Shown here one piece after another: positions 2,203 to 45,365 of a stretch of DNA of 64,000 bases (its first letter is position 1; each line of letters begins with the position of its first letter). A program made the translations under genes and the position numbers. The notes under the pieces were generated by a model. The model ran no database searches and was not told the DNA's origin. It was given only the letters and a program-made list of their open reading frames with translations. The DNA lies in NCBI RefSeq assembly GCF_029590555.1, contig NZ_CP081002.1, positions 676,501 through 740,500 on the forward strand, in the 5' to 3' direction. Origin of the DNA: Sphingobium sp. V4 (GTDB lineage Bacteria; Pseudomonadota; Alphaproteobacteria; Sphingomonadales; Sphingomonadaceae).

Positions 2203-3027
2203 ATGGCTCAAGTCGAGTCCAACAAGGCGAAGATCGCCAAGCGCGTTATCGAAGTGCTTGAATTCTTCGACGAAAATCACCCGCAGGCCACGGTGATGGA
2301 CATTGTCCGTCGCTTCGACCGGCCCCAGTCAAGCACCTCGGAATTGCTGTCCAGCCTGGTCGACCTGGGCCTGCTGCACAAGGACCCCTGCTCGCGCTCC
2401 TACTCGCCCACGCCGCGCGCGGCGATGCTGGCCGCCGCAGTGCAGCCGCGTCTGGTGCGCGATGGCGGGCTGACCGGCCTGATCGACCGGCTTTCGGCGC
2501 AGACCGGCCTGGGCGTCGCCGTTTTCGGCATGGTCGGGCTGAAGGTGCAGGTCGTCCACTGGCGCGGCGGCAAGCGCAGCTTCCGCACCGCCGGCCCCGG
2601 TTTCTGCGGCGGGCAGCAAGATTATCTGTCCGACTCCGCCGCCGGCTGGCTGATGCTGTCGACCGTCACCGAGCCGCGGCGCGGCGGCATGATCCGGCGC
2701 CTCAACGCCGAAGCCAGTGAGGACCGCAAATTCGCCACCGCCGACATGGTGGGGCAGGTCCAGCGCTGCCGCGATGAAGCCCATGTGAGTGGCCGGGCCG
2801 GCTTCGGCTCGATCGCGGACGTAACGGCGGTGCTGCTGCCCAACATGCCGGAAAGCCAGCCGCTGGCGATCGGCTTTGTCTATGAACCATCGGACCAGAT
2901 CGACGCCGAGGGCTTGCTCGCCACCCTCAAGGACGCGGTGCGTCGCTGTGTCGAAGAGCCGGCCCCCGCATCGGTTTCGCCCCTGTTCGATGCCCGCCAG
3001 CCGCAGTTCGAGGTCAGCCATGGTTGA
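2203..3027 (+). CDS. IclR-family transcriptional regulator
   Basis: 274-residue regulator. A winged HTH covers roughly residues 10-65 (KRVIEVLEFFDENHP, then MDIVRRFDRPQSSTSELLSSL), followed by an IclR-type effector domain. The start at 2203 is chosen because AAGGAGAGG sits just upstream; an in-frame ATG at 2167 has no such site. The stop overlaps the start of the amidohydrolase by 8 bp, so the two genes are co-transcribed and probably translationally coupled. A likely ligand is an aromatic or CoA-linked metabolite of the local pathway, but nothing in the sequence fixes it. Confidence 0.88.
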   Translation: MAQVESNKAKIAKRVIEVLEFFDENHPQATVMDIVRRFDRPQSSTSELLSSLVDLGLLHKDPCSRSYSPTPRAAMLAAAVQPRLVRDGGLTGLIDRLSAQTGLGVAVFGMVGLKVQVVHWRGGKRSFRTAGPGFCGGQQDYLSDSAAGWLMLSTVTEPRRGGMIRRLNAEASEDRKFATADMVGQVQRCRDEAHVSGRAGFGSIADVTAVLLPNMPESQPLAIGFVYEPSDQIDAEGLLATLKDAVRRCVEEPAPASVSPLFDARQPQFEVSHG

Positions 3028-4288
3028 GGTTAAGGACCAGGAACTGGCTCAGGCCGCGCGCAAATATTGGTCGGCCGAAGGATATACGGAAGGCGGCGTG
3101 ATCCGGGAGGTCGACTATGCCTCGCAATCGGGCGGTCTGGATCCGTCGCTGGCGGGCATCAAGATCGTCGACACCGACACCCATATTACCGAGGCGCCCG
3201 ATCTGTTCACATCGCGCGCGCCGGCCAACTACAAAGCAAAGGTACCCTATGTGAAGCTCGACGCCGACGGCGTCGAACGCTGGTATGTCGGTGACCGCAA
3301 TTTCGGCTCTATGGGCGGCAACGTCATCCGCGCCGACAATAACAAACTGCTCGGACGTCTCGCTTTTCCCAAGCTTTCACAGGCACATCCGGGCGGCCAT
3401 CTCATCAAGGAACGCTTGCAGGCGATGGACGATATGGGCGTCCATGCCCAGATCGGCTTCCAGAATTCGGGCGTGACCCAGGCGGGATCGCTGATGTCGC
3501 TCGGCGACCCCGACCTCGCGCTGGCCATCATCCAGATGTATAATGACGCCTCCGCCGAATATCAGCAGGTATCGGGCGATCGCATCTTCAACATGGCCCA
3601 TCTGCCTTTCTGGGACCAGACGGCGCTGGAAACCGAGGCGCGGCGGTGCGTAGACATGGGACTAAAGGGTTTCGTGCTACCCGACACGCCCGAACGGGTC
3701 GGCGTGCCCAGCTTCATGCATGAGTATTGGACGCCCTTCCTGGAGATGTGCGAAGCGACGGGGATGCCGCTCAACTTCCATCTCAATGCGGCGATCGATC
3801 CCAATACCTTGACCTGGGAAGGCTTCGGCTTCGAACAGACCCTGTCGGTGGTCGCCACCATGTTCTCGATCGGCAACGCCGCCACGCTGGGCAACTGGAT
3901 GGTGTCGGGTCGTCTGGACCGACATCCCAAGCTCAAGATCGGCCTGATCGAGAGCGGCGCGGGCTGGGTTCCGTTCGCCATCGAGGCGCTGGAGCACCAG
4001 TTCGACGAAATGCTGCCGAGCAAGAAGGGTCTGCTCAACAAGCGGCCGAAAGAATATTTCCGTGACCATTTCTGGGTCACATTCTGGTTCGAAAAGATCG
4101 CCCCCAAACTGCTGCTGGAGACGATCGGGGTCGACAAGGTCATGTTCGAGACTGACTTCCCGCACCCGACCTCGCTCTATCCGGGCGTCCAGTCGCATAT
4201 CATCGACGTGCTGGGCGGCTATGATTTCGAGGTGAAGAAGAAGGTGCTTCAGACCAACGCCACCGGCCTCTATAATCTGCCCTTCTGA
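3020..4288 (+). CDS. Amidohydrolase_2 family metal-dependent hydrolase/decarboxylase
   Basis: 422-residue TIM-barrel protein of the amidohydrolase 2 group, the same fold as ACMS decarboxylase and related nonoxidative decarboxylases. Metal-site features: DTDTHITE at 51-58, the NFHLNAAID segment (His on a later strand), IESGAGWVPF and ETDFPHPTSLYP (C-terminal Asp). The start at 3020 overlaps the IclR stop. The family removes carboxylates or hydrolyses C-C or C-N bonds of ring-derived acids; here it could act on a ring-cleavage or side-chain acid. Transcription ends at a strong hairpin-plus-T-run at 4299-4330. Confidence 0.9.
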   Translation: MVEVKDQELAQAARKYWSAEGYTEGGVIREVDYASQSGGLDPSLAGIKIVDTDTHITEAPDLFTSRAPANYKAKVPYVKLDADGVERWYVGDRNFGSMGGNVIRADNNKLLGRLAFPKLSQAHPGGHLIKERLQAMDDMGVHAQIGFQNSGVTQAGSLMSLGDPDLALAIIQMYNDASAEYQQVSGDRIFNMAHLPFWDQTALETEARRCVDMGLKGFVLPDTPERVGVPSFMHEYWTPFLEMCEATGMPLNFHLNAAIDPNTLTWEGFGFEQTLSVVATMFSIGNAATLGNWMVSGRLDRHPKLKIGLIESGAGWVPFAIEALEHQFDEMLPSKKGLLNKRPKEYFRDHFWVTFWFEKIAPKLLLETIGVDKVMFETDFPHPTSLYPGVQSHIIDVLGGYDFEVKKKVLQTNATGLYNLPF

Positions 4289-4298
4289 CCGAAGGCCT

Positions 4299-4330
4299 GG
4301 GCGCTCCCGACGAACGGGAGCGCCCTTTTT
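4299..4330 (+). terminator. Rho-independent terminator
   Basis: GGGCGCTCCCG (4299-4309), a 5-nt loop, then CGGGAGCGCCC (4315-4325) form a perfect 11-bp GC-rich stem, directly followed by TTTTT (4326-4330). It lies 10 bp after the amidohydrolase stop and touches the stop codon of the convergent DUF2889 gene. It has no T-run in the opposite direction, so it is a one-way plus-strand terminator. Confidence 0.93.
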
Positions 4331-5064
4331 CAGCGCTGGCGATAGCGGGTTCCGTCGAAATGATCGAGCGGTACGAGGGCACCCCCGCTGAAGTCGATGA
4401 TCTTCCCGACACGCCGCGCGCGCACCGCATTTTCCGGCTGAAAAGTATAGCAATTGGGCGGCACGCGGGTCGCGGTGGATTGCCGCTCCATCGGAATGAG
4501 CCGGCCATTGCCGAGGATCGCCCCCCACTGGAGCAGCCTTGCAGCTTCCCTCTCGCGTCCTTCCAGTCCCTCGATCCACTCGCGCAGCTTGAGCAGGGAT
4601 TCCCCGGCGATCGCGTCCGGCCTCTCCATTACATGGCCGCGATGCGCGAATTGCAGCACGGGGGTGCCGTCACGCCGGATCTCCGCGACGCTGAGGCCAT
4701 CGACCGGATCGCAGGCGACAATCTCATAACGGGTCGGGGCCTGGTCAGTGGCGTGGGCGGCGGCCAGCACCATGAGATCGTGCAAATGGGTGCAGTTGGC
4801 CTTCTTCTCGCCGCGGCCCGCAACGTCCGCAAGCGGCACGCCCGTGAAGGTGCCTTGCAATATCGCGGACGCGCCGGGACAGGTGGTCCAGGGAAGGCGG
4901 TCCAGGATCGAATCCACCTCTGTCACGACCACGCCGTCATGATGCAGGATGACGGCCATGCTGTGATAGTCGTCCTCGACAGCGGCGATCACCTGCCCGG
5001 CCGACGGCGTCACCAGGAAGCGGCGGCGAAAGCCCGACAGCCTGTCGAGCGCGGCGCTGTCCAT
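4330..5064 (-). CDS. DUF2889 domain protein, last gene of the P450-DUF35-aldolase operon
   Basis: 244 residues. I recognise the DUF2889 pattern: HHDGVVVTEVDS, then RLPWTTCPGA, then NCTHLHDL with an adjacent LAAAHA helix. Conserved Cys and His residues in these segments hint at metal or thiol chemistry, but the function is unknown. ATG 5064 has AAGGA at good spacing; a TTG at 5070 would overlap the aldolase stop. It follows the thiolase-fold aldolase with a 2-bp gap, so it is cotranslated with it and is a candidate accessory or downstream enzyme of the CoA-ester pathway. No signal peptide or membrane segment is seen. Confidence 0.8.
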   Translation of the reverse strand: MDSAALDRLSGFRRRFLVTPSAGQVIAAVEDDYHSMAVILHHDGVVVTEVDSILDRLPWTTCPGASAILQGTFTGVPLADVAGRGEKKANCTHLHDLMVLAAAHATDQAPTRYEIVACDPVDGLSVAEIRRDGTPVLQFAHRGHVMERPDAIAGESLLKLREWIEGLEGREREAARLLQWGAILGNGRLIPMERQSTATRVPPNCYTFQPENAVRARRVGKIIDFSGGALVPLDHFDGTRYRQR

Positions 5065-5066
5065 CG

Positions 5067-6227
5067 TCAATCCTTCGCCAGCAGCAGCGCCGCCGCCATC
5101 GGGCCACCGCCTGAGGTCGCGATCGCGACCCTGGGATCGCCGGCGATCTGCCGCGCTCCACCCTCTCCCCGCAACTGCACAACCGCCTCATAAGCGAAGC
5201 CGAAGCCATGCAGGCGACCCCAGCCGAGCTGGCCGCCGCCGGTATTCATCGGCAGGTCGCCGTCGAGCGCGATTCGCTTGCCACCTTCCAGGAACTGGCC
5301 GCCCTCGCCGATCTCACAGAAGCCCAGGCCTTCCAGCCAGGTGATCGGCTGGAAGGCGAAGCCGTCGTACAGCTGGACGGTATCGACATCCTTGACGCGA
5401 TAGTCGGTAGTCGCCCAGAGATCTCGGCCGGTCGGATAGGCTCCGGCCCATTCGGCCTGATCCCAGCTATAGCGTTCGACCGAACCGGCGCTGGCAGCGA
5501 TCCGGATCGGCGTTGCCTTCACCTCGTCCAGGGCGTCGCCTGCCGAAACGATGATGACCGTCGAGGCGTCAGTGAAGCGGTCGCAATCATAGAGGCAGAA
5601 GGGCGTGCTGATCATCCGCGCGCCCATATATTTGTCCATCGTCAACGGTTCGCGAACGAGGGCGCGCGGATTGCGCGCGGCATTGGCATGATCGTTCAAC
5701 GCCACCTGCGCGAGCTGCTCGCGGGTCAGACCATAGCGCTTCATGTGCCGCATCGCGAATTGCGCGGTCCAGTTGGCGGCGGAAAAGGCGCCGAAGGGCG
5801 ACACCCATTGCGAACTGCCCGACACGTCCTTGCGCCGTTCGAGCGGCGGAAACTCCTCCGGCCGGGCGAGGGCGGCGGCCTCATAGACGGTGCGGAAGCA
5901 GAGCACATGGCGCGCCAGGCCCGCCTTCACCGCAGCAGCGGCTTCCGCCACCGCCCCCAATTGAGCAGTCGCTTCCGCCGCGCCGACATGCCAGCGGGTC
6001 TTCAGCCCCAGCACCTCGATGAGATCATCTGCACTGACCGGCGAGAAGCCGAGAAAGCTCTGCATCTTGCCGGGATAGGTGGCGACGCCGTCGATCTGGT
6101 CGAGAGTGAGGCCCGCGTCGGCGATGGCTTCGCGCACGGCGTCGAGGGTCAGGCCCAGCGGGGACCGTGTCAGGCGGACACCGACCTCGGACATGCCGAT
6201 GCCGCTGATATGGGCTTCGTGCGCCAT
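5067..6227 (-). CDS. Thiolase-superfamily lipid-transfer/aldolase (Ltp2-like)
   Basis: 386-residue thiolase-fold protein. The usual thiolase nucleophile region reads VGAAEATAQL (81-90), with no Cys, so it is not a normal thiolase. It has a C-terminal YDGF (Tyr287) and GRLHGFGFAYEA (His340, Tyr346), matching the pattern of Ltp2-type steroid side-chain aldolases, where two tyrosines are catalytic. Those enzymes work only in complex with a DUF35 protein, and a DUF35 gene lies 3 bp upstream. Predicted reaction: retro-aldol cleavage of a beta-hydroxyacyl-CoA side chain. It lacks a clear Shine-Dalgarno, consistent with translational coupling. Confidence 0.85.
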   Translation of the reverse strand: MAHEAHISGIGMSEVGVRLTRSPLGLTLDAVREAIADAGLTLDQIDGVATYPGKMQSFLGFSPVSADDLIEVLGLKTRWHVGAAEATAQLGAVAEAAAAVKAGLARHVLCFRTVYEAAALARPEEFPPLERRKDVSGSSQWVSPFGAFSAANWTAQFAMRHMKRYGLTREQLAQVALNDHANAARNPRALVREPLTMDKYMGARMISTPFCLYDCDRFTDASTVIIVSAGDALDEVKATPIRIAASAGSVERYSWDQAEWAGAYPTGRDLWATTDYRVKDVDTVQLYDGFAFQPITWLEGLGFCEIGEGGQFLEGGKRIALDGDLPMNTGGGQLGWGRLHGFGFAYEAVVQLRGEGGARQIAGDPRVAIATSGGGPMAAALLLAKD

Positions 6228-6230
6228 GGT

Positions 6231-6635
6231 TCAGCCGACCTTTTCGAACAGGGGATACCAGATGCCGTCCTGTTCCTCGAACAGCACCTGGACCCGATCG
6301 TCGATATCGACCGCATCGACCGGGCATTGGACGATGTTGGTCGTCAGATAGACGCCCGGCGCATCGTCCAGCTTCACGCGCGCGATCACGAAGGGCACTT
6401 CCATGTCCTTCGCCCAGGACTGATGATTGACAGTATAGCTGTCGACCACGCCCATCCCCGACACCGCATGGGGGCCGACATTTTCCGACTGGCAATGGCG
6501 ACAGATTTCGCGCGGGGGATGGGTGAAGCCCCCACAATCACCGCAGCGGGTGATATTGAGCCGCCCGTCCGCGCCGCCGGTCCAGAAGGCGCGATTGTCC
6601 CGGTCGAGCCGGGGCCGCGAACGCTGCCAGGCCAT
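6231..6635 (-). CDS. DUF35/Zn-ribbon OB-fold protein, aldolase partner
   Basis: 134 residues. A zinc ribbon of the form CxxC-x10-CxxC uses Cys31, Cys34, Cys45 and Cys48, followed by an OB-fold (GVVDSYTVNHQ through DDRVQVLFEE). Proteins of this kind form heteromers with thiolase-fold aldolases and supply part of the acyl-CoA site. It sits 1 bp after the P450 stop and 3 bp before the aldolase start, the expected arrangement for an obligate complex. Confidence 0.9.
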   Translation of the reverse strand: MAWQRSRPRLDRDNRAFWTGGADGRLNITRCGDCGGFTHPPREICRHCQSENVGPHAVSGMGVVDSYTVNHQSWAKDMEVPFVIARVKLDDAPGVYLTTNIVQCPVDAVDIDDRVQVLFEEQDGIWYPLFEKVG

Positions 6636-6636
6636 G

Positions 6637-7890
6637 TCAGTCGGCCCAGACCAGGTGCAGGCTTTCCAGGCCGATCACATGACCGCCATGGAACACCGGC
6701 GGATGGTCGGGATCGAGCCGGAATTCGGGCAGGCGGGCGAGCATTTCCTCGTAGAGGACTTGCAGTTCGACGCGGGCGAGGTGCGAGCCCAGGCAGCGAT
6801 GCGGGCCGACCCCGAAGGCGATATGGACATTATTCTCGCGATCGAGGTCATAGACCTCCGGCTGCGGAAATTCCTTCGCGTCGAGATCCGCGGCCGGCAG
6901 GAACAGCTTGACGAAGTCGCCCGGCATCAGCTTCGCGCCCGCCAGTTCGGCCTCCTTCTTCACGATCCGCATCGGCACCGTGAAAGTATAGCGGCGCAGC
7001 ATTTCCTCCGCCGCCTCGGCGATCAGCTTGGGTTCGGCGCGCAGCTTGCGTTGCAGGTCGAGGTCGAGGGCCAGACCGCGCATGGCAAGGCCCATGCCGT
7101 TCATGACCGTATCGAGACCGGCGATGAACAATAGCACGCCATAATTCTCCATGTCGGCCAGTGTGGTGGGCTGGCCGTCAATCTCGAGCTTCCATAGCAT
7201 CGAGAGAATGTCGTCGCGCGGATTGTCGCGGCGGTCGAGCATCACATCGCGCATCGCTGCGGCAATCTTTTGCAGGCGACGCATCGACCCTTCGCGATCG
7301 GTGTCGATCGCCTCCATATGCTCCTTCACGATGGCGCGATATTCGGGCAGCCGGTCGAGCGGCAGGCCCAGCATCTTGAGGAACACCTGGACCGGCAGCG
7401 GCTCGGCCACGGCGGACATGAATTCGCAGCGCCCCGCCGGCTTGATCGTCTCGATCAGTTCGGCCGCGAGCGCGCTGATGCTGGCCTTCAGGTTCGCGAT
7501 CGTCTTGGGCGAGAAGACCTTTTGCAGCGGCTGGCGATATTTGGTGTGCTCCGGCGGATCGAGCGTGATCGGGACCGGCTGGGGGATGTGGGGCGCGCCG
7601 GGCGGCAGCGCCGCCAGCATCGCCTTCATCTGCGCAGCCGGCACGAATTCACTGGAGAAGGTTTCCGTATCGCGCGAGGCTTCATAATTGGCGGCATGGC
7701 TGATCGCCAGCCAGCCGCCGCCGTTGCGCGGCGTCCAGAAGACGGGCGGCGCGGTGCGCAGCAGATCCAATATCCGCTGGTGCGGATCGGCCAGCAGGCC
7801 CGGATCGGCATGGACGTCAAAGTCATAGACCAGCGCATCGGGCACATGGGCCGGCTTGGCTGCTATCGGGCTGAGGGCTGCGTGAACCAT
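6637..7890 (-). CDS. Cytochrome P450
   Basis: 417-residue soluble class I P450. The heme-ligand loop is FGVGPHRCLG with Cys366; the I-helix oxygen-binding motif is AGLDT (257-261); the ExxR pair is Glu296/Arg299 in EEMLRR. The start at 7890 is preceded by GGAGA; longer in-frame starts extend across the divergent promoter and lack homology. It heads a four-gene operon with DUF35, aldolase and DUF2889. The ferredoxin it probably uses is transcribed divergently 215 bp away. Likely role: hydroxylation of a hydrophobic cyclic substrate or its side chain. Confidence 0.95.
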   Translation of the reverse strand: MVHAALSPIAAKPAHVPDALVYDFDVHADPGLLADPHQRILDLLRTAPPVFWTPRNGGGWLAISHAANYEASRDTETFSSEFVPAAQMKAMLAALPPGAPHIPQPVPITLDPPEHTKYRQPLQKVFSPKTIANLKASISALAAELIETIKPAGRCEFMSAVAEPLPVQVFLKMLGLPLDRLPEYRAIVKEHMEAIDTDREGSMRRLQKIAAAMRDVMLDRRDNPRDDILSMLWKLEIDGQPTTLADMENYGVLLFIAGLDTVMNGMGLAMRGLALDLDLQRKLRAEPKLIAEAAEEMLRRYTFTVPMRIVKKEAELAGAKLMPGDFVKLFLPAADLDAKEFPQPEVYDLDRENNVHIAFGVGPHRCLGSHLARVELQVLYEEMLARLPEFRLDPDHPPVFHGGHVIGLESLHLVWAD

Positions 7891-8105
7891 GATGTCTCCG
7901 GCTATCCTGCTTCCTGTTTTGGCCGGTGTCGCCCGCATGGCGGACAAAGGCAAATGGGTTGGCACAGCCTCGTCGCAATACCGCAGGGACGATCGCCACA
8001 ATCACCCGATCCCGCGCGTATCGTGGCGGCGATTGAGCGTTAGGACGAGTTGATCGCCGTCCCAATCTCCTTTCTAAGGAAGACAAGCATCGCTGGAGAG
8101 GCGTC

Positions 8106-8336
8106 ATGAAAATCCGCATCGAAAGAGCGGCGTGCGTGGGCAATGCCCGCTGTGCCGCCGTGTCAGACACCCTCTATCCGCTCGACGAGGACGGCTACAT
8201 CGCGACCGACGGTTTCGAGGTTCCCGAGGGCATGGAAAAGATCGCGAAAAACGGCGCGCGCGCCTGTCCCGAGCGGATCATCTTCGTGATCGAGGATGAC
8301 GACAGCATCAGCTGGCCCCCGGCGGCCAAGGCCTGA
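8106..8336 (+). CDS. [3Fe-4S] ferredoxin, probable P450 electron donor
   Basis: 76-residue small ferredoxin. Three cluster cysteines are visible: Cys10, Cys16 and Cys54 (the CP pair), giving C-x5-C-x37-CP with the middle ligand position of a 4Fe cluster missing. This is the single-cluster 3Fe-4S type encoded beside bacterial P450s. It is divergent from the P450 gene and starts the HSD-ACAD-ECH gene string. No ferredoxin reductase is found anywhere in the window, so electrons must come from one encoded elsewhere. Confidence 0.93.
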   Translation: MKIRIERAACVGNARCAAVSDTLYPLDEDGYIATDGFEVPEGMEKIAKNGARACPERIIFVIEDDDSISWPPAAKA

Positions 8337-8353
8337 CCATCTTATCGGAGAGC

Positions 8354-9184
8354 ATGATGAGCGACTTATTGGGCTACAGGGGCAAGCGGGTGATCGTAAG
8401 CGGGTGCTTCTCCGGCATGGGAGAGGCGACGGCCAGGTTGCTGCTCGACCTGGGCGCTGAGGTGCATGGCCTGGATTTCAAGGACAGCAGCCTGCCGCTC
8501 GCATCCTTCCACAATGTCGACCTGCGCGACGCAGGCTCGATCGAGCGCGCCGTTGCCGGCATCGGTGGAAAGGTGGACGCGCTCTTCAATTGCGCGGGCC
8601 TGCCGCAATCCTTCCCGCCGATGGATGTCATGAAGGTGAACTTCATCGGCCTGCGGCATCTGACCGAACAGGTGTTGCCGTTGATGGGCCCTGGCGGTGC
8701 GATCGCCAGCATCGCTTCAACCGGCGGGCTTGGCTGGAGCCGCCGCATCCCCACCAACATGGAATTCGTCACCACCAAGGGCTTCGATGCCGCCATCGCC
8801 TGGTGCGAGGCAAATATGGACATCGTCAAGGAAGGCTACAGCTTCTCCAAGGAGAATGTGATCGTCTGGACCCAATATATGGGCGCCCACCTCATCAAGC
8901 AGGGCATCCGCATCAACTGCACCCTGCCCTCTCCCACCCAGACGCCGATGATGGCCGCGTTCGAGGCGACCTCTGGCAAGGATGTCGTCGCCGCTGCGGC
9001 CGAGCCGATGGGACGCTATTCGACGCCGGAGGAGCAGGCTGCGGGCCTGGTCCTCATCAACAGCGACCTGGCCAGCATCGTCAACGGCGTGGTTTTCCCG
9101 GTCGACGGCGGCTTCATGGGCGGCGTGGCGACCGGGCAGGTCGACCTCAGCATCATGATGCGGCGCGCCGCACCCGCGCAATAA
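8354..9184 (+). CDS. SDR dehydrogenase, 3-alpha-hydroxysteroid dehydrogenase-like
   Basis: 276-residue SDR. The nucleotide-binding motif is GCFSGMGE (17-24) and the catalytic pair is in YSFSKE (Tyr162, Lys166), with Ser in SIASTGG. The short variable region and the YSFSKENV helix resemble the 3-alpha-hydroxysteroid dehydrogenase/carbonyl reductase group, which suggests oxidation of a ring hydroxyl. GGAGAGC precedes two adjacent ATGs. It lies 17 bp after the ferredoxin gene and 16 bp before the acyl-CoA dehydrogenase. The substrate is inferred from family resemblance only. Confidence 0.87.
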   Translation: MMSDLLGYRGKRVIVSGCFSGMGEATARLLLDLGAEVHGLDFKDSSLPLASFHNVDLRDAGSIERAVAGIGGKVDALFNCAGLPQSFPPMDVMKVNFIGLRHLTEQVLPLMGPGGAIASIASTGGLGWSRRIPTNMEFVTTKGFDAAIAWCEANMDIVKEGYSFSKENVIVWTQYMGAHLIKQGIRINCTLPSPTQTPMMAAFEATSGKDVVAAAAEPMGRYSTPEEQAAGLVLINSDLASIVNGVVFPVDGGFMGGVATGQVDLSIMMRRAAPAQ

Positions 9185-9200
9185 GCCGGAGCCTGCCAAC

Positions 9201-11408
9201 ATGAATTTCGACCTGACCGACGACCAGGAAATGATGCGCGACATGTTCGCGCGCTTCCTCGACGAACAGAGCAGCATGATCCGGGTGCGCGAGGCGGCGC
9301 CTTCGGGCTTTGATCCGGCCTTGTGGCAGGGGCTCGCCGATCTGGGCGCCCTGTCGATCCGGGTGCCGGAGGAAGCCGGCGGACTGGGCCTGGGCCTGTT
9401 CGACGCCACGCTGCTGATGGAGGAAGCGGGCCGGACCCTCGTGTCGGGGCCGTTGGCGGAGGCATTGATCGCCGCCCGGCTGCTGGCGCAGCTGGGCGGC
9501 GACACCGCCGAGTTGCTGGGGCAGGTCATGACCGGCAGGGCCATTGTCAGCCTCGCCTTTCATGACGTGGCCGACCAGCCGGTGCAATGGATCGGCGGCG
9601 GACAGGTGGCGCAGTCCGTGATCGCGCGGCGCGGCGGGGATGTGATCCTGGTCGATGTGCCTGAAGCCGCACGGCGCTCCGAGGACAACTTGGCATCGAC
9701 ACCCATGGCCGAAATCGATCTTGGCGCCCTACCCCATGCCATATTGGCGACTGGGGAGGCCGCACTGTCAACCCTCGCGCAGTGCGTGGAGGAATGGAAG
9801 CTGTTGATTGCCGCCGGGCTGGCGGGGATCGGGCGACAAGCGCTCAAGCTCGCCGCCGCCTATGCCTGCGAACGCAAGCAGTTCGACCAGTATATCGGCC
9901 AGTTTCAGGCCATTTCCCATCCGCTGGCGGACCTGCTGTGCGATGTCGATGGCGGCAAGTTCCTGGTCTGGAAAGCGATACGGGATCTGGTCGACGCCGC
10001 ACCACAGGCGGGCGCGGCGATATCGATCGCCGCCTGGTGGAATGCCGACGCCGCCGCACGGGCGGTGGCGCAGGCGCTGCACACATTTGGCGGCTACGGC
10101 CTCACCACCGAATATGACATCTTCCTGTTCAACCTGCGCGCCAAGGCCTGGCCGCTGCTGCTGGGCGACCCGCAGCGGCTGATCGAGGAAGCGGGCCGGC
10201 GCTTCTATGGCGCCGAAAGGCCCGCCCTGCCTGATGCAGGTGCCATGCCGATCGACTTCGACCTAGGCGAGGACGCGCGAGCCATCACGCAGGAAATCAA
10301 CGATTTCTTTGCCGCGAACGTGACGCCGGAGATGCGCGAGACCTTCCATTACAGCTGGGAGGGCTACAATCCCGAACTGAACCGCAAGCTCGCCGCGCAG
10401 AATCTCCTCTATCTGGGCCTGCCGGCCGATGTCGGCGGCAGAGGCTTGTCGGCCTACGAAAAGACCGCGGCGATGGATGCGTTCGAAACGCAGGGCTACA
10501 ATAACCCCGCCGCCAATGTGACGCAGATGGTGGCACTCATCATCCACCGCTTCGGCACGGAAGAACTCAAGGCGGCGGTGCTGCCGGAGATCATGCGCGG
10601 GGAGGTGATCTGCTCACTCGGCTATTCCGAACCCGGTTCCGGTTCCGACGTGTTCGCCGCCCAATGTCGCGCCACGCAGCAGGCCGACGGCAGCTGGCGG
10701 ATCGACGGCACCAAGATGTTCACCAGCGGCGCCAACCTGGCCACCTATGTGCTGATGCTGTGCCGGACCAACCCGGACGTGGCCAAGCACAAGGGGCTGA
10801 CCATGTTCATCGTACCGCTGAAGGCCGACGGAGTGACGATCCAGCCGGTCCATACCTTCCAGGACGAGCGGACCAACATCACCTTCTATGACGGCGTCTC
10901 CATACCCGACAGCTGGCGGCTGGGCGAGATCGACGGCGGCGTCCGCACCATGAGCGCCAGTCTGGAGCTGGAGCATGGCGGGGGCTTCGCCAAATATCAG
11001 CGCGCGATGTTGCAGGCAGCCGAAAGCCTGTGCCGAGAGATTCGGTGCGATGGCCGGACGCTGATCGAGAATGGCGGCGCGCAGGTTCGCCTGGCGCGGA
11101 CCGCTGCCAATCTGTGGGCATCGGAACTCATCACCTACCGGGCACAATGGGCGATAGCGGAAAAGAAGCCCAACCATGCCTATGGCCCGATGGCCAAGAT
11201 GTTCAGTTCCGAAAAATTCCAGAGCGACGCGCGCGACCTGCTGGATCTGACGGCGCCGCTATCCCTGTCGAAGCGCAAGGGCGCGGCCGCCGAGATCAAC
11301 CAATATTACCGCCACGCCCAGGGATCGACCATTTATGGCGGGACAAGCGAGGTCCATCGCAGCATGATCGCCGAGCGGGCATTGGGCCTGCCGCGCACCC
11401 GTGCCTGA
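9201..11408 (+). CDS. Fused two-domain acyl-CoA dehydrogenase
   Basis: 735 residues made of two acyl-CoA dehydrogenase units, about 1-340 and 345-735. This resembles fused or alpha2beta2 steroid-type dehydrogenases (FadE34 class in actinobacteria) rather than single-unit enzymes. The second unit holds the FAD/substrate segments SLGYSEPGSGSD and a C-terminal YGGTSEVHR in which Gly replaces the medium-chain-type catalytic Glu. A Glu in ASLELEHGG may be the base, as in isovaleryl/long-chain types. The first unit looks degenerate, with GGYGLTTEYD near its end. Predicted reaction: alpha,beta-dehydrogenation of a bulky acyl-CoA feeding the next gene, a hydratase. Confidence 0.9.
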   Translation: MNFDLTDDQEMMRDMFARFLDEQSSMIRVREAAPSGFDPALWQGLADLGALSIRVPEEAGGLGLGLFDATLLMEEAGRTLVSGPLAEALIAARLLAQLGGDTAELLGQVMTGRAIVSLAFHDVADQPVQWIGGGQVAQSVIARRGGDVILVDVPEAARRSEDNLASTPMAEIDLGALPHAILATGEAALSTLAQCVEEWKLLIAAGLAGIGRQALKLAAAYACERKQFDQYIGQFQAISHPLADLLCDVDGGKFLVWKAIRDLVDAAPQAGAAISIAAWWNADAAARAVAQALHTFGGYGLTTEYDIFLFNLRAKAWPLLLGDPQRLIEEAGRRFYGAERPALPDAGAMPIDFDLGEDARAITQEINDFFAANVTPEMRETFHYSWEGYNPELNRKLAAQNLLYLGLPADVGGRGLSAYEKTAAMDAFETQGYNNPAANVTQMVALIIHRFGTEELKAAVLPEIMRGEVICSLGYSEPGSGSDVFAAQCRATQQADGSWRIDGTKMFTSGANLATYVLMLCRTNPDVAKHKGLTMFIVPLKADGVTIQPVHTFQDERTNITFYDGVSIPDSWRLGEIDGGVRTMSASLELEHGGGFAKYQRAMLQAAESLCREIRCDGRTLIENGGAQVRLARTAANLWASELITYRAQWAIAEKKPNHAYGPMAKMFSSEKFQSDARDLLDLTAPLSLSKRKGAAAEINQYYRHAQGSTIYGGTSEVHRSMIAERALGLPRTRA

Positions 11409-11418
11409 GGATGACGCC

Positions 11419-12219
11419 ATGAGTGATAAGCCGCATCTGCTGACGCAGGAACAGGACGGCATCCTGATCGTCACGCTCAATCGGCCGGACAAGCTCAACG
11501 CCCTATCCGCCGAGACCATGGCGCTGTTCGAAGCCGCCCTGCTCCGCTTTCGCGATACCGCGGCATTGCGGGTGATGCTGATCCGCGCGACTGGTCGCTA
11601 TTTTTCGGCCGGCGCGGACCTCAAGAGCGGCGATGCTCCGGCCTATCCGCGCACGCCGAGCGGCATCCGCGAAAATCATCGGCTGAATCTGAACGGGATG
11701 CAGCGCATCTATGACGAGATGGAGCATGTCGAAAAGCCCATCGTCTGCGCCATTCACGCGACCTGCGTCGGTGGCGGGCTGGAAATGGCTCTGTCGTGCG
11801 ATTTCCGCCTGGCGGCCAGGAGCGCGGCTTTCTCCTTCCCCGAGGGGCTTTTCGGGGTGCTGCCGGCCTCCAATGGGGTCAGCCGCCTGACGCGCATCTG
11901 CGGTCCGCATTGGGCACGCTGGTTGATCATGGGCAATCAGAAGGCCGATGCCGATCGGGCATTGATCATGGGCCTGGTCCATGACGTGCTGCCGGACGCG
12001 GGATTTGACGAGGCCGCGCTCGCCTTCTGCCGGCACCTAACCCGGCAAAATCCGGAACAGATGGGCGCGGCCAAGATCGCCATCGAACTTGCTAACGAGG
12101 TCGGCCCCTCCATGGGCCGCCATGTCGAGCGGATGGCGAACAGCGCCCTGATGCTGAACCCTGCCTATCTGGAGGGCATGGAGCGCTACCTGAAGGGCGT
12201 TGGCGGGCAGAAGGACTGA
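11419..12219 (+). CDS. Enoyl-CoA hydratase
   Basis: 266-residue single-domain crotonase. Both hydratase acids are present: Glu in GGGLEMALSCD and Glu in FSFPEGLFG. The oxyanion stretch is YFSAGADLKSG. The start at 11419 is chosen for GAGG 8 bp upstream, giving a 10-bp gap after the acyl-CoA dehydrogenase; an upstream GTG at 11401 overlaps the dehydrogenase end. It forms a dehydrogenation-hydration pair with the preceding gene, yielding the beta-hydroxyacyl-CoA that the divergent aldolase/DUF35 operon could cleave. It ends 4 bp from the convergent TetR gene. Confidence 0.93.
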   Translation: MSDKPHLLTQEQDGILIVTLNRPDKLNALSAETMALFEAALLRFRDTAALRVMLIRATGRYFSAGADLKSGDAPAYPRTPSGIRENHRLNLNGMQRIYDEMEHVEKPIVCAIHATCVGGGLEMALSCDFRLAARSAAFSFPEGLFGVLPASNGVSRLTRICGPHWARWLIMGNQKADADRALIMGLVHDVLPDAGFDEAALAFCRHLTRQNPEQMGAAKIAIELANEVGPSMGRHVERMANSALMLNPAYLEGMERYLKGVGGQKD

Positions 12220-12223
12220 TCGG

Positions 12224-12973
12224 TCAAACGCGTCCCTCTACCGCAAGGGCGCGATAGTCGCGAATACCCAGTTCGAGCAGCCGCGCCTCCGCGCGCAACA
12301 GATGCGTTCGTCCCAGCGGATTGGGTGTATGCAGTATATGCTGCAACGCGGTGTCCGTCGTCACGGTGACGACGCGTTCCAGCCCCGTCATCAATGCCGT
12401 GGCCATACTGAATGGTGGGGATTGCTGCTGGCCCAGATCGCCGTCCATCTGCTCGACCAACAAGCGCATGACTGGCTGCGCCGCATGGACGCGATGCAAC
12501 ACCATGCGCTCATTCTGCGCGTCGGCCATCTGGTTACGCAGGTGGAGAAGCCGCGAATGCTTGATCCAGAAGCCGTGATAAGCGGTGACAAAGGCCAGCG
12601 CCCTTTCTCCCAGGACTGCGTCATCCCAGCGATCGCGCAGCAAGGAAATATACTCATCCTCCGCCGTCGCCATCACCGGTTCCAGTACCGCCATCAGCAG
12701 TTCGGTGAGATCGTTGAAATAATTGTAGAGCGAGGTCATCCCCAACGATGCCTGGCGCGCCACGGCGCTCAACGAAACCTCGACATCCGGCGGCCCCGCC
12801 AACAATTCATTGGTGGCGGCGAGGATACGCTCACGCGTGTCCCGCCCCTTGCGACCCAGGCGCTGGCCGTTGAGATTGTGGCTGAGCGTGGTGGAGGGCG
12901 CTGCCGCGCGCGCGCGAATGGTTGATGGCCTGACAGCCTGGTCGCCCACCGTCTTGTCCACGTTCGCGCTCAA
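12224..12973 (-). CDS. TetR-family transcriptional regulator
   Basis: Up to 249 residues. The HTH begins at about residue 40 (GRKGRDTRERILAATNELL) and includes SLSAVARQASLGMTSLYNYFND, the typical TetR recognition helix. No ATG is available: the longest frame starts at TTG 12973, and a GTG at 12961 is an alternative, neither with a strong Shine-Dalgarno, so the N-terminus is uncertain. It follows the aldehyde dehydrogenase by 20 bp and is probably the last gene of that operon. Confidence 0.85.
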   Translation of the reverse strand: MSANVDKTVGDQAVRPSTIRARAAAPSTTLSHNLNGQRLGRKGRDTRERILAATNELLAGPPDVEVSLSAVARQASLGMTSLYNYFNDLTELLMAVLEPVMATAEDEYISLLRDRWDDAVLGERALAFVTAYHGFWIKHSRLLHLRNQMADAQNERMVLHRVHAAQPVMRLLVEQMDGDLGQQQSPPFSMATALMTGLERVVTVTTDTALQHILHTPNPLGRTHLLRAEARLLELGIRDYRALAVEGRV

Positions 12974-12993: not shown

Positions 12994-14460
12994 TCATGCG
13001 CGCCAGGCCACGAGCTTGGTATCGAGAAACTCCTCGATGCCCTCAAGGCCCCATTCGCGACCCATGCCACTGGCCTTGCAGCCGCCAAAAGGCAAGTCTC
13101 CGGCGATGCACATGCCGCCATTAACGCTCACCGACCCCGTCCGTATCCGCCGGGCGACACCGATCGCACGGTCAAGGTCGCCCGACGCCACCCCGCCCGA
13201 CAGCCCGTAGCTGCTTTCATTGGCGATACGGATGGCGTCCTCGTCATCGTCATAGGGGATGACGACAAGGACCGGTCCGAAAATCTCTTCCTGCGCGATA
13301 CGCATGTCATTGGTGACGTCAGCGAAGCAGGTCGGCTCGACAAAATAGCCGCCGCCCTTGTCCGGGCGCGCCTTGCCTCCGGCCAGCAGCGTCGCCCCCT
13401 CCTGTTGTCCCAGTTCGACATAGGACAGGACGCGATCCATCTGCCGCTTCGACACGACCGGACCCATGATATGCTGCGGATTGTCGAACTCGCCCCAATT
13501 ATCGCCGAAACTGCCGTAGGCATGTTTAAGGACGGCCTTGGCCTCCTCATGGCGGCTGCGCGGCACCAGCAGGCGCGAATGGACGGCACAGCCCTGACCT
13601 GCGTGGAAGACGAGCATCGACTGGGCGACGTCCATGGCGAAATTGGGTGCATCGTCGAGGATGATCTTCGCCGACTTGCCGCCCAGTTCGAGGAAGACGC
13701 GCTTCAGGGTGGCAGCGCCCTGTTCCATGATGCGCTTGCCAACGCCAGTAGACCCGGTGAAGGAAATGAGGTCCACGCGCGGGTCCGTGACCAGCATTTC
13801 GCCGGCCAGTGCCGGGTCCGCGCCGAAGACGACGTTGAGCACGCCGGCGGGGAGGCCCGCTTCCGCCGCCAGTTCGCCGAAGATCGCGCCCATGCCCGGC
13901 GTGTTGGGCGCAGGCTTCAGAATGACGGTGCAACCTGCCAGCAGAGCCGCAACGACCTTCCCCACATTGACATAGAGCGGCACGTTCCAGGGCGTGATCG
14001 CCCCGACGACCCCCACCGGTTCATAATAGGCGCGGCGCTGCGTCTCGAAGCCGTAGCCGGTGCGCGGTCCATAATCCTTTTCCCAGACGATTTGGGGAAA
14101 GAGGCGCAGATAATCGTCCCAGCCGTCGAGCGCCATGTCGACATGGGCGCGGCCGACCGCCCCGATGGCCGCGCCGGCTTCATGGCGGGCAAGGTCGGAC
14201 AGGCGATCCTTGTTCGCTTCGAAAAGCGCTCGCAATTTCGTGACGAGGGCCACGCGCAGTTCGACATTGGTCGACCAGTCGGTGGTGTCGAACGCCCGGC
14301 GCGCGGCCGCGATCGCCGCCTCGACATCGGCCGCCGACGCATCGGCCGCCCGCCCGACCACATCCCCGGTCCAGGGTCCGATCACGTCGAACGTGCGGCC
14401 TTCCTCGGCTTCGCGCAACACGCCGTCGATATAGAGTTTGGCGTCGGGGAGAATGGCCAT
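12994..14460 (-). CDS. Aldehyde dehydrogenase (NAD-dependent superfamily)
   Basis: 488-residue aldehyde dehydrogenase. The general base Glu is in LELGGKSAK, and the nucleophilic Cys is in FHAGQGCAVHSR. The NAD-binding stretch is SFTGSTGVGKRIM and the C-terminal end of the fold is GREWGLEGIEEFLDTK. The Cys environment (GQGCAV) is slightly unlike the usual GQxCxA but keeps the Cys. It lies 29 bp after an SDR gene, so alcohol-to-aldehyde-to-acid oxidation by neighbours is plausible. It resembles the aldehyde dehydrogenase at 40641-42068. Confidence 0.92.
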   Translation of the reverse strand: MAILPDAKLYIDGVLREAEEGRTFDVIGPWTGDVVGRAADASAADVEAAIAAARRAFDTTDWSTNVELRVALVTKLRALFEANKDRLSDLARHEAGAAIGAVGRAHVDMALDGWDDYLRLFPQIVWEKDYGPRTGYGFETQRRAYYEPVGVVGAITPWNVPLYVNVGKVVAALLAGCTVILKPAPNTPGMGAIFGELAAEAGLPAGVLNVVFGADPALAGEMLVTDPRVDLISFTGSTGVGKRIMEQGAATLKRVFLELGGKSAKIILDDAPNFAMDVAQSMLVFHAGQGCAVHSRLLVPRSRHEEAKAVLKHAYGSFGDNWGEFDNPQHIMGPVVSKRQMDRVLSYVELGQQEGATLLAGGKARPDKGGGYFVEPTCFADVTNDMRIAQEEIFGPVLVVIPYDDDEDAIRIANESSYGLSGGVASGDLDRAIGVARRIRTGSVSVNGGMCIAGDLPFGGCKASGMGREWGLEGIEEFLDTKLVAWRA

Positions 14461-17015: not shown

Positions 17016-17429
17016 TCATTCCATGCGGTCGAACCGCACTTGCGCGATCCGCCATCCCTGCGGCGTCAGGCGAAAGCGGTCGGCATAGCGCCCCATCACC
17101 GTGTCGATGACACCGCTCTCGCGACGTTTAAGCTTGACCATTACCGTCCAGTCACCCCTCAGCTCGTCCCCATCCACCTCGATCCGGGGCGAATGGAGCA
17201 TGTGCAGCACCCACAGGCTGTTGCCGGCAATGGCGGTACAGAGAAAGCCGGTGATCGCATCGGCACCCTCGAGCAGGCCCATGCCATAGTCGCCCACGAA
17301 ATCGGTGGTGAAGATCTTGGCGAACAGGGTACGGGCCTCATCCGGATCCTGCGCGGCCAGATCGGCGGCCGCACAATAGCGCGCCTTGAGATTGGCGATG
17401 GTCAGCGCCTGATCCGCAAGGCCGTTCAT
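17016..17429 (-). CDS. SnoaL/NTF2-like small protein
   Basis: 137 residues with the cone-shaped NTF2/SnoaL_4 fold signature: an N-terminal helix (LKARYCAAADLAAQDP), then a central sheet with GDWTVMVKLKRRE and RYADRFRLTPQGWRIAQV. Many members are isomerases, cyclases, dehydratases or accessory subunits of ring-active enzymes. Its start overlaps the acyl-CoA synthetase stop in an ATGA, so they are co-translated. The catalytic residues are not certain. Confidence 0.82.
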   Translation of the reverse strand: MNGLADQALTIANLKARYCAAADLAAQDPDEARTLFAKIFTTDFVGDYGMGLLEGADAITGFLCTAIAGNSLWVLHMLHSPRIEVDGDELRGDWTVMVKLKRRESGVIDTVMGRYADRFRLTPQGWRIAQVRFDRME

Positions 17430-19108
17430 GCCGGCTCGGCTTCGAGCCGCTTCGCCACCAGCGCCTTGAGATCGGCGGTCTTGATCTTCGCGCTGCCGGT
17501 CAGCGCCAGATCCTCCTCGCTGAAAAAGAGAACGCGACGTGGGACCTTGTAACTGGCCAGCTGACCTTTGGCGAAACCGCGCACATCCTCTTCCGCCAAT
17601 GCGGCGCCGTCATGCGGGACGATGCAGGCGACGACCAGTTCGCCCAGCGTTTCATGCGGGACGCCGACCGTCTGGGTCATCTTGACACCGGGACAACCCT
17701 TGATGACGGCGTCGATCTCCACCGGGGAAACATTGGCGCCCCCGGTCTTGATGATGTCGTTGAGGCGCCCTTCCCAGAACAGCCTGCCCGCCGCATCCAG
17801 ATATCCGCCGTCGCCGGTGCGGAAGAAACCCTCCGCGTCGACGCTTTCATCCAGCGGCACGCCGACATAGCCGAGCATCAGCGTCGGCCCCTTGACCGCG
17901 ATCTCGCCACGTTCGCCCAGCGGCATGACGGCGCCGGTCAGGGGATCGAGGACCTTGAAGATATTGCCCGGCAGCGGTTTGCCATGGCTGCCGGCAATCT
18001 CCGCCTCCGGAGTGCCGGAGTCGAAGATGGCGCTGATCGTGAAGGTTTCGGTATTGCCATAGGCGGCCATTGGTTCCTGCCAGTCGGTCCGGACCGTGGG
18101 ATGGCGACCCAGCGGCGTGTTCGCCCCGACATAATGGAGCGAGGACAGATCGACATCGCGCCAGTTCGCCGCCCCTTCCAGCTGCGCCCATTGGTGCGGC
18201 CAGGCAAAGGCCATGGTCGCGCGCTCCTGTTCCATCAGGCGAAGCGCCTCTTCGGGCTGGAACGTGGCTTGCAGGATCAGGCTGCCGCCCGAGGACAGGG
18301 CGCCGCCGATGGCCATGGCGAAATTGCCCGACCAGAAGAAGCCATTGGCCGACCAGGCGCGGGCGTCCTCCCGCGCAGCGAGAAAGCGCTTCCAGCGCCA
18401 GAGCTGGAGCGTGACTCCCCGGTGCATGGACAGGATGCCCTTGGGCTTCGCGGTCGAACCGGACGAGAAGAAGAGTACGCCCGGATCGGCGGGCGTCACG
18501 GTCGCGGCGGCGGCGTCGACCAGAGCCTGATCGACCGTTGCCCCGCGCGCGAGGAAATCGTCCCACGGCTCGATCATACCGCCTCCGCCTCCGACTGAGG
18601 CGATGTGACGCAGGAATGGAAAGCGGGTCGATCCCAGTTCCCCCGGCGCGCTGGTTGCAACCGCCGGCTCCAGCTCGGCGATCATGGACGCAAAATCCTT
18701 CTTCAGGACGGAGCGTTCGATGAGCAGGACATGCGCGCCCGAGGCCTGGATCAGGTGATCCAGTTCGGCCGTCGTCGAAAAGGTGCTGAGCGTCGCCGCC
18801 ACACCGCCGGCGAGCGCCGTACCGAACACCGCAGCGAGAAATTCCGGACGATTGGTCATCAGAACGGCGACGCGCGTACCCTTGCCCACGCCGGCGGCAA
18901 TGAGCGCGCGGGCCACCACATTGGCCCGCGCCCACAGTTCGTCATAGGTCCACCGCGTGACGGTATCGCCTTCATGCATGACCAGCGCCTCGGCCGGCCC
19001 CGATCGCGCCGTGACCTGCCGGAGCCAGCCGCCCAGGGTGAGTTCGCCCAGTCCCGGCTCTTCGCCCAGGGGCGGGCCGGCGACGATCGAAAGCGGCCGA
19101 TCAGTCAT
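17426..19108 (-). CDS. AMP-forming acyl-CoA synthetase
   Basis: 560-residue ANL-superfamily enzyme. The ATP/AMP P-loop is FFSSGSTAKPKG; the acyl-adenylate motif region is YGNTETF; the hinge aspartate region is GDGGYLDAAGRLFWEGR; the C-terminal catalytic Lys is in TGSAKIKTADLK. It activates a carboxylic acid to its CoA ester. Neighbours (MaoC hydratase 21 bp upstream, SDR downstream) make it the entry step of a beta-oxidation-like branch. The substrate is unknown. Confidence 0.92.
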   Translation of the reverse strand: MTDRPLSIVAGPPLGEEPGLGELTLGGWLRQVTARSGPAEALVMHEGDTVTRWTYDELWARANVVARALIAAGVGKGTRVAVLMTNRPEFLAAVFGTALAGGVAATLSTFSTTAELDHLIQASGAHVLLIERSVLKKDFASMIAELEPAVATSAPGELGSTRFPFLRHIASVGGGGGMIEPWDDFLARGATVDQALVDAAAATVTPADPGVLFFSSGSTAKPKGILSMHRGVTLQLWRWKRFLAAREDARAWSANGFFWSGNFAMAIGGALSSGGSLILQATFQPEEALRLMEQERATMAFAWPHQWAQLEGAANWRDVDLSSLHYVGANTPLGRHPTVRTDWQEPMAAYGNTETFTISAIFDSGTPEAEIAGSHGKPLPGNIFKVLDPLTGAVMPLGERGEIAVKGPTLMLGYVGVPLDESVDAEGFFRTGDGGYLDAAGRLFWEGRLNDIIKTGGANVSPVEIDAVIKGCPGVKMTQTVGVPHETLGELVVACIVPHDGAALAEEDVRGFAKGQLASYKVPRRVLFFSEEDLALTGSAKIKTADLKALVAKRLEAEPA

Positions 19109-35247: not shown

Positions 35248-35305
35248 CCGTCGGCTCCTCTCCGTCATCTTCCCTGCGATCCTAGCGACGAAGGCCGGAC
35301 GCAGA

Positions 35306-35341
35306 AGGGGCGTCGCCGCATATCGCTGCGGCGACGCCCCT
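35306..35341 (-). terminator. Perfect 15-bp stem-loop between MaoC and SDR genes
   Basis: AGGGGCGTCGCCGCA (35306-35320), a 6-nt loop (35321-35326) and TGCGGCGACGCCCCT (35327-35341) pair over 15 bp without mismatch. It lies 20 bp downstream of the MaoC stop codon and 58 bp before the SDR start on the same strand. There is no clear T-run after it, so it may be an RNA stabiliser, an attenuator or a partial terminator. Confidence 0.7.
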
Positions 35342-35361
35342 CTCTCCACCCCTGTAACGGA

Positions 35362-36510: not shown

Positions 36511-36526
36511 GCTGCTTCTCCTGTCC

Positions 36527-45265: not shown

Positions 45266-45365
45266 GCCATCCTCCCGCATCCCGCTCCGGTCCGCCGACC
45301 TATCGCGTTCGCGCCTGTGCGCCCAAGCGAAAGCGGGCGGCGCGACGACATCATCCCCCCGGCGA

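Follow-up and report, generated by a model that had tools for sequence, protein, structure and literature searches.

We analysed a window of 64,000 nucleotides from Sphingobium sp. V4 (contig NZ_CP081002.1, positions 676,501 to 740,500 of the forward strand) and found that eight adjacent genes, at positions 4330 to 12219 of this window, include one for a thiolase-fold aldolase which, judged from its residues and its place in a phylogenetic tree, is neither an Ltp2 nor a Sal and defines a separate clade. The eight genes appear to constitute a conserved coenzyme A (CoA)-dependent module that shortens the chain of an alicyclic substrate resembling an isoprenoid or a steroid, a reading to which we assign a probability of about 0.6. 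We consider the odds to be even that the clade represents a further active-site class, in which DUF35-dependent thiolase-fold aldolases that use a Tyr/Arg pair alongside a conserved Glu and occur across Proteobacteria, Actinomycetota and Myxococcota serve an undescribed catabolic pathway; its substrate would be a non-steroid alicyclic natural product of wide occurrence, and in sphingomonads its genes would occupy a conserved cluster of 31-75 kb.

Two active-site solutions for DUF35-linked thiolase-fold aldolases, Tyr/Tyr in Ltp2 and Tyr/Cys in Sal, are described in PMC12329534. Specifically, this paper assigns to Ltp2 of Thermomonospora curvata (TcLtp2) Tyr294 as the base, Tyr344 as the acid and His296 in the oxyanion hole, and to Sal of Comamonas (CtSal) Tyr302 and Cys304 within a YDCY motif, with Gln352 at the column of Tyr344; the Y302F substitution abolished Sal activity, which is said there to agree with the equivalent Tyr of Ltp2. 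The window aldolase (386 residues, 5067..6227, minus strand; Thiolase_C_1 in Pfam) had as its best PDB match 6ok1_A, of the Ltp2/ChsH2-DUF35 complex. Alignments confirmed the first-pass annotation in that the thiolase Cys is absent, but of the two tyrosines that it had assigned to the enzyme only the base is kept: Tyr287, in a YDGF motif, aligns with Tyr294 of TcLtp2 (YDHF), whereas Arg338 and Gly289 occupy the columns of Tyr344 and His296, the alignment being ungapped around both motifs. Gly289 also stands at the column of the Cys in the YDC of Sal, and neither known acid (Ltp2 Tyr344, Sal Cys304) is thus present. The loop that bears the Cys in thiolases is shorter and carries Glu85. Arg204 aligns, by hand count, with the Sal Arg that binds the CoA pyrophosphate, making a CoA thioester a likely substrate. 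Tyr287 is probably the catalytic base, and Arg338, which is placed in the pocket by alignment, may stabilise the enolate, with Glu85 a possible proton donor; Arg338, perhaps together with Glu85, would then take over from the groups that act as acid and in the oxyanion hole in Ltp2 (Tyr344, His296) and in Sal (Cys304).

This signature was found to be widely kept. YDGF, Arg338, Glu85, Gln89, Asp216, Trp255 and Gln257 were retained in 80/80 loci, with Gly289 and Arg338 invariant, although identity dropped to 47-52% in the remoter loci. An 11-sequence alignment was used to scan species genomes, and of the 581 loci confirmed, with more in existence, the 80 best were kept; the count therefore describes the near clade rather than all relatives. 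The tree was built from 61 rows, including 16 of the 80 loci, with the signature columns left out; CtSal (residues 53-424) was the sole Sal and TcLtp2 the sole characterised Ltp2. All 31 YDGF/Arg rows formed one group (support 100/96), seven YDHF/Tyr rows including TcLtp2 formed a separate one (100/99), with an eighth YDHF/Tyr row, L027, just outside, and three true thiolases formed their own clade (100/98). CtSal and IpfD, the latter a thiolase-like protein of ibuprofen degradation, fell outside the three groups on long branches. Exceptions within the YDGF/Arg group were a protein of genome G056 with Asp at Glu85, a Caulobacter plasmid protein with Pro at Gln89 and the paralogue L001 described below. 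The tree and the missing Cys agree in keeping the window aldolase apart from the true thiolases, so that the phylogenetic outcome named in the first-pass annotation as refuting its proposal did not arise, and identity as a true thiolase was rejected on these two grounds together with HDxF and GHP motifs that the protein does not match. No paper on the YDGF/Arg group was found in the open-licence literature, and YDGF does not occur in the main text of the Sal paper (PMC12329534). The window genome encodes a second, diverged YDGF/Arg protein (L001:10200-11645; C1:1156209-1157375), which has a DUF35-like gene of its own (open frame L001:11387-11920); genes for a TonB receptor and a CoA ligase lie close by, as does a Rieske-type gene.

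We identified IpfD in the record of plasmid pIBU218 (L180:13639-14826) from the dioxygenase and ligase genes beside it; the record labels it a hypothetical protein. It has YDAF, and at the columns of Tyr344 and Glu85 it carries Tyr and Glu, respectively. An alternative would be that the window pair works as IpfDE does on ibuprofen, releasing the side chain of an aromatic acid once the ring has been dioxygenated. The shared Glu would fit, as would the pairing of a DUF35-type gene with a thiolase-like gene beside dioxygenase genes on pIBU218 (PMC9195938). However, IpfD is YDAF/Tyr and outside the YDGF/Arg clade, and Pfam searches of the module itself gave no ring dioxygenase, while the Rieske genes of the window (25643-26830 and 43889-45280) are distant from it; we regard this alternative as highly improbable.

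The remaining genes bear out the gene content given by the first-pass annotation: all eight open reading frames (ORFs) lie where it had placed them, and searches of Pfam and NCBIfam recovered the expected families. The tight spacing on the minus strand was likewise confirmed, with 1 bp between the P450 and DUF35 genes, 3 bp between the DUF35 and aldolase genes, and either a 4 bp overlap (TTG start) or a 2 bp gap (ATG start) between the aldolase and DUF2889-like genes. The DUF35 partner (134 residues, 6231..6635, minus strand; PF12172 and PF01796, zf-ChsH2 and OB_ChsH2_C) combines a zinc ribbon with an OB fold, has an intact C-x2-C-x10-C-x2-C zinc motif and gave 6ok1_B, ChsH2(DUF35), as its best PDB match. 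The cytochrome P450 (6637..7890, minus strand; PF00067) has 417 residues counted from ATG 7890, which is preceded by GGAG and is probably the start rather than TTG 8001; its heme motif FGVGPHRCLG and its AGLDT (AGxDT) motif are intact. Among solved structures it was nearest to CYP101J2 (5kyo, 223 bits) and P450cam (about 202 bits), with CYP125-like proteins close after them at 190 bits. Membership of CYP101 is by rule a matter of at least 40% identity, and the window P450 is placed near CYP101 by bit scores. CYP101J2 and its relatives act on cineole, camphor and ionones. The DUF2889-like protein (244-246 residues, 4330..5070, minus strand), last in the operon, scored 24.7 bits against PF11136 (cut-off 25) and had no match in the PDB below E 0.7, the single match, at E 0.72, being at chance level; its orthologue in Sphingobium sp. 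RAC03 carries a DUF2889 annotation, and orthologues with 39-75% identity lie on the same strand as the aldolase in related loci.

On the plus strand, the ferredoxin (76 residues, 8106..8336; PF13459, Fer4_15) has three cysteines only, C10, C16 and C54, which fits the 3Fe-4S type, and it is the probable electron donor of the P450. The short-chain dehydrogenase/reductase (SDR; 8354..9184; adh_short), of the coniferyl-alcohol/3-alpha-hydroxysteroid dehydrogenase subfamily, scored 288 bits against NF009092, above the cut-off of 242, has an intact YxxxK and matched best, in the PDB, the 3-alpha-hydroxysteroid dehydrogenase/carbonyl reductase 1fjh. The acyl-CoA dehydrogenase (ACAD; 735 residues, 9201..11408) is a fusion, a single chain in which Pfam finds the ACAD domains of two units. 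Its N-terminal half, which by eye appears to lack a catalytic base, scored 118 bits against NF050027 (IpdE2), below the cut-off of 450; the C-terminal half matched best Tcur3483 in the PDB, and in the HMMER alignment Glu591 falls on a Glu of Tcur3483 and is thus the probable catalytic base. The enoyl-CoA hydratase (266-272 residues, 11401..12219; PF00378, ECH_1, 139.5 bits) is of the crotonase type, with both Glu regions present.

We infer the order of steps, the catalytic roles and the substrate class as follows. The CYP101-like P450 and its ferredoxin would hydroxylate the substrate; the SDR, with a neighbouring aldehyde dehydrogenase (ALDH) and a CoA ligase, would convert the alcohol to an acyl-CoA, or might instead oxidise a ring alcohol; the fused ACAD would form the 2-enoyl-CoA, the crotonase would hydrate it, and the DUF35-aldolase pair would cleave the resulting beta-hydroxyacyl-CoA into an acyl-CoA and a ketone or aldehyde. 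Of the reaction order proposed in the first-pass annotation, we retain dehydrogenation, then hydration, then a retro-aldol cut made jointly with DUF35, in view of the intact motifs, the 6ok1 best match shared by the two partners and the kept gene order, but the enzyme of the last step is not an Ltp2. A retro-aldolase in place of oxidation and thiolysis is reasonable for a beta-carbon that is tertiary or hindered, an argument which PMC8399759 makes for C17-hydroxylated steroid side chains.

Comparison with other genomes showed that the eight genes recur together. Among 99 genomes from the bacterial family, an aldolase match at E <= 1e-20 was present in 42, and an orthologue of at least 69% identity in five, the window genome included; a second genome of the same genus had no match at E <= 1e-20. 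In genome G021, of another genus, the full set of eight is preserved in order at 51-90% identity, together with flanking genes; G051 has seven (55-79% identity) and no recognisable DUF2889 gene; G025 has six, the P450 and ferredoxin being missing. On a plasmid of Sphingobium sp. RAC03 the module is found, at 82% DNA identity, at the end of a stretch (759342-790351) annotated with a thiamine pyrophosphate (TPP)-dependent E1 alpha and a transketolase-like partner, a lipoyl carrier, an enoyl-CoA hydratase, a Gfo/Idh/MocA oxidoreductase and a thiolase, and also with a CoA transferase, an AMP-binding ligase, a helix-turn-helix regulator and an amidohydrolase. In three gammaproteobacterial loci (L112, L116 and L125), the ferredoxin, SDR, P450, DUF35, aldolase and DUF2889 genes are re-ordered on one strand, with a KstD-like gene (48-52%) nearby, and a fourth (L123) has the same re-ordered set without a DUF2889 match. 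This recurrence in other sphingomonads and in Gammaproteobacteria indicates that the eight-gene set is a real unit. In the wider sample, in which contig ends shortened the flanks of a number of the 80 loci, a DUF35-type gene adjoined the aldolase gene in 73/80 loci by BLAST and 72/80 by zinc motif, and a P450 gene in 24/80 by BLAST and 22/80 by motif.

Several observations weigh against the chain-shortening module as drawn here. The P450 and ferredoxin are missing not only from G025 but also from the otherwise syntenic loci L105, L107, L108 and L113, and because several loci do without them these two genes appear to be an upstream add-on; the DUF2889-like protein, being missing in G051, is not obligatory; and no ALDH is annotated in the compact RAC03 unit, whose gene table describes itself as incomplete. 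In addition, the distant paralogue in the Sphingobium sp. V4 genome (L001) has YDGF/Arg but is without Glu85, Trp255 and Gln257. Identity of the window aldolase to YDHF/Tyr relatives is 30-33%, its best NCBIfam models score well under their cut-offs, and with these residues altered the enzyme could catalyse something else on an acyl-CoA. We found no characterised member of the clade, and aldolase activity therefore rests on kinship with Ltp2 and Sal. A rival reading makes the protein a Cys-less acyltransferase or a C-acylase of the PhlC kind, since DUF35-type partners also accompany thiolases and C-acylases (PDB 5m3k, 6esq and 7pxp were among the matches). However, the Tyr base and the CoA-binding Arg are kept, the profile search gave 251 bits for Ltp2 against 80-88 for PhlC, and genes for a dehydrogenase and a hydratase adjoin that of the aldolase, which makes an acylase quite unlikely.

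The module boundaries of the first-pass annotation were drawn too narrowly, since ALDH, SDR, amidohydrolase and regulator genes adjoin the module in some related loci. Two genes on the minus strand are probable extensions: a TetR-type regulator (12224..12961), with weak matches to FabR/KstR models near its N-terminus and kept in G021, G051 and G025, and the ALDH (12994..14460; PF00171, TIGR04284; 84/76/81% in G021/G051/G025), which would oxidise an aldehyde arising before activation or freed by the aldolase. An AMP-binding CoA ligase (17426..19108, minus strand; PF00501), kept in G021 and G051, is the candidate activating enzyme within the extended cluster. On the other side, on the plus strand, lie an Amidohydrolase_2 family protein (3020..4288; PF04909), with 74-91% orthologues in 8/80 loci and also in G021 and G025, and an IclR-type regulator (2203..3027; PF09339), kept in G021, G051 and G025.

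We found that the module forms one end of a 31 kb cluster containing a KstD-like dehydrogenase, a TPP-dependent 2-oxoacid dehydrogenase, CoA ligases and CoA transferases; in the window genome the conserved stretch covers about 75 kb (C2: 650.6-725.5 kb). A KstD-family gene lies about 28 kb from the module in the same cluster, and in RAC03 an FAD-binding protein stands at the position of the KstD-like gene. To the left of the window, a block at C2:650596-657043 (L083/L084), kept in G021 and largely in G051, encodes TPP E1 alpha and beta, a lipoyl carrier, a KstD-like FAD protein, an enoyl-CoA-hydratase-family protein and a further ORF; perhaps it serves ring cleavage by an acetoin-dehydrogenase-like system. 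A run at 42108-47195, encoding a TPP enzyme, a Rieske oxygenase and a PtlE-like Baeyer-Villiger monooxygenase (NF045818, 651 bits, cut-off 1100), is kept with the module in G021 and G051. An alkyl-sulfatase-like protein of the metallo-beta-lactamase fold is encoded at 31860-34297 beside a sulfotransferase, and relatives of the former adjoin the aldolase in L112 and L114. A 721-residue ORF at 34372-36537 had no Pfam match, and comparison with stretches of G021, G051 and G025 gave it no reciprocal 40% match.

The substrate of the module lies between steroid-like compounds and other alicyclic isoprenoids, and we lean towards the latter. The first-pass annotation had called the gene set typical of steroid-like side-chain removal, a description not borne out by a P450 nearest to CYP101, the lack of a strong KshA_C match in most carriers and a crotonase in place of the MaoC hydratase used by the Ltp2 and Sal systems. 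As a less likely alternative, the module would trim C3 or C5 side chains from bile acids or sterols, with the rings then degraded elsewhere and YDGF/Arg being a steroid variant. Consistent with this are the KstD-family gene in the cluster, the 3-alpha-hydroxysteroid dehydrogenase-like SDR and the nearest PDB entry of the ACAD, the Thermomonospora protein Tcur3483. In addition, PMC8399759 reports sphingomonad bile-acid degraders that lack Sal, Sad and Ltp2 homologues and use an uncharacterised side-chain route, and the oestrogen operon, as laid out in PMC7793797, has the order P450, chsH2-like, lipid-transfer protein. The KstD-like proteins, with 7p18 (a 3-oxosteroid 1-dehydrogenase) as best PDB match, score 490-555 bits, however, below the cut-off of 789. 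A MaoC-like protein with a FAS1_DH region (19130-20311), 7 kb beyond the module, is a possible second hydratase of the extended cluster and would suit a steroid route, but G021 offers no syntenic counterpart and G051 just a 42% match at another place.

As a steroid marker, KshA_C gave a mixed picture that was not decisive. Applying a line of 170 bits, which we set ourselves at a gap in the scores, we found 17 of 98 family genomes over the cut-off and eight above 170 bits, compared with eight and five, respectively, of 17 carriers of an aldolase orthologue. The excess of 5/17 over 8/98 points towards steroids, though these 17, genomes of unstated completeness, were reached through the loci and include other families, four of them (L105, L108, L113 and L119) being without a P450 neighbour. 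Against a steroid substrate, 12 of the 17 carriers lack a match above 170 bits, as do all four syntenic family genomes (the two sets share one genome). In the window genome itself, two KshA_C matches pass the cut-off, scoring 104 and 94 bits.

Alternatively, the aldolase might cut a 3-hydroxy-3-methylacyl-CoA, a tertiary alcohol arising from a beta-methyl-branched terpenoid side chain, to acetyl-CoA and a methyl ketone, replacing the carboxylation route, for example with abscisic-acid-like or ionone-like compounds; we put this forward tentatively, as a possibility of less than even odds. A retro-aldolase is of use where the beta-carbon is tertiary. The CYP101-type P450 and the presence of aldolase relatives in many soil and water bacteria are in keeping with such a route, as is the suitability of retro-aldol cleavage for a tertiary beta-carbon, discussed for C17 in PMC8399759. 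According to PMC7996341, Rhodococcus P1Y converts abscisic acid to dehydrovomifoliol, and by our own reasoning a cut of this kind would yield dehydrovomifoliol from abscisic acid. However, the cluster contains no diagnostic gene of a known terpenoid pathway, and no genetic link was found. Abscisic acid, moreover, would need no ACAD step and could not be a substrate of KstD. Leads from the tomatine-degrading Sphingobium RC1, from diterpenoids and from abscisic acid gave no gene-level match.

A broad clade with a fixed Arg and neither known acid poses a direct mechanistic question. The nearest listed relatives, where named, mostly carry unspecific labels ('thiolase family protein' or 'acetyl-CoA acetyltransferase', for example), and many such annotations could be corrected. 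The conserved cluster suggests a common natural substrate for catabolic genes that we were unable to match to a described pathway. The case cautions that 'Ltp2-like plus DUF35' need not mean steroid catabolism.

Several known systems come close. One is Ltp2-ChsH2(DUF35) of T. curvata (6ok1), with the igr-type C3 side-chain system, which shares with the window module the thiolase fold, a DUF35 partner with a C4 zinc ribbon, the Tyr base, the lack of the thiolase Cys, and dehydrogenase and hydratase steps that precede cleavage. In contrast to Ltp2, the window aldolase has Arg338 for Tyr344, Gly289 for His296 and a shorter nucleophile loop with Glu85, and belongs to a separate clade, and the window module has a crotonase rather than a ChsH1-ChsH2 MaoC hydratase, a fused ACAD and a P450 in the operon. 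The fused ACAD resembles the CasC type, beside which we set it by description, in having two ACAD halves in one chain and a Glu in the C-terminal half; the passage on CasC in PMC8399759 describes a fused enzyme with a base in the C-terminal domain only. The bile-acid aldolase Sal-Shy of Comamonas testosteroni (9myr) is likewise a DUF35-dependent retro-aldolase with a Tyr base and a CoA-binding Arg, but it has YDCY with Cys304 and a C3H1 zinc finger where the window pair has YDGF/Arg and a C4 zinc finger. The edc OpA operon of Novosphingobium tardaugens has the order P450, DUF35-type gene, thiolase-like gene, as in the window, a likeness that rests on gene order; as far as the operon is described, it continues, unlike the window, with an enoyl-CoA hydratase, a thiolase, an HMG-CoA-synthase-like and other genes, and a search for edc-like clusters via the HMG-CoA-synthase-like family PF01154 returned 0/249. 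IpfDE of pIBU218 is, as in the window, a thiolase-like and OB-fold pair in a sphingomonad, but IpfD is YDAF/Tyr, IpfE has no CxxC zinc motif and the system is dioxygenase-coupled. The same plasmid, from Rhizorhabdus wittichii MPO218, carries a second pair (L180:938-2502), an Ltp2-type YDHF/Tyr protein and an OB-fold partner, between IS6100 copies. By function, then, the window module would be expected to work like the Ltp2 and Sal modules, while it belongs to neither type, the second Tyr, the His and the clade separating it from Ltp2, and the Cys and the zinc finger from Sal.

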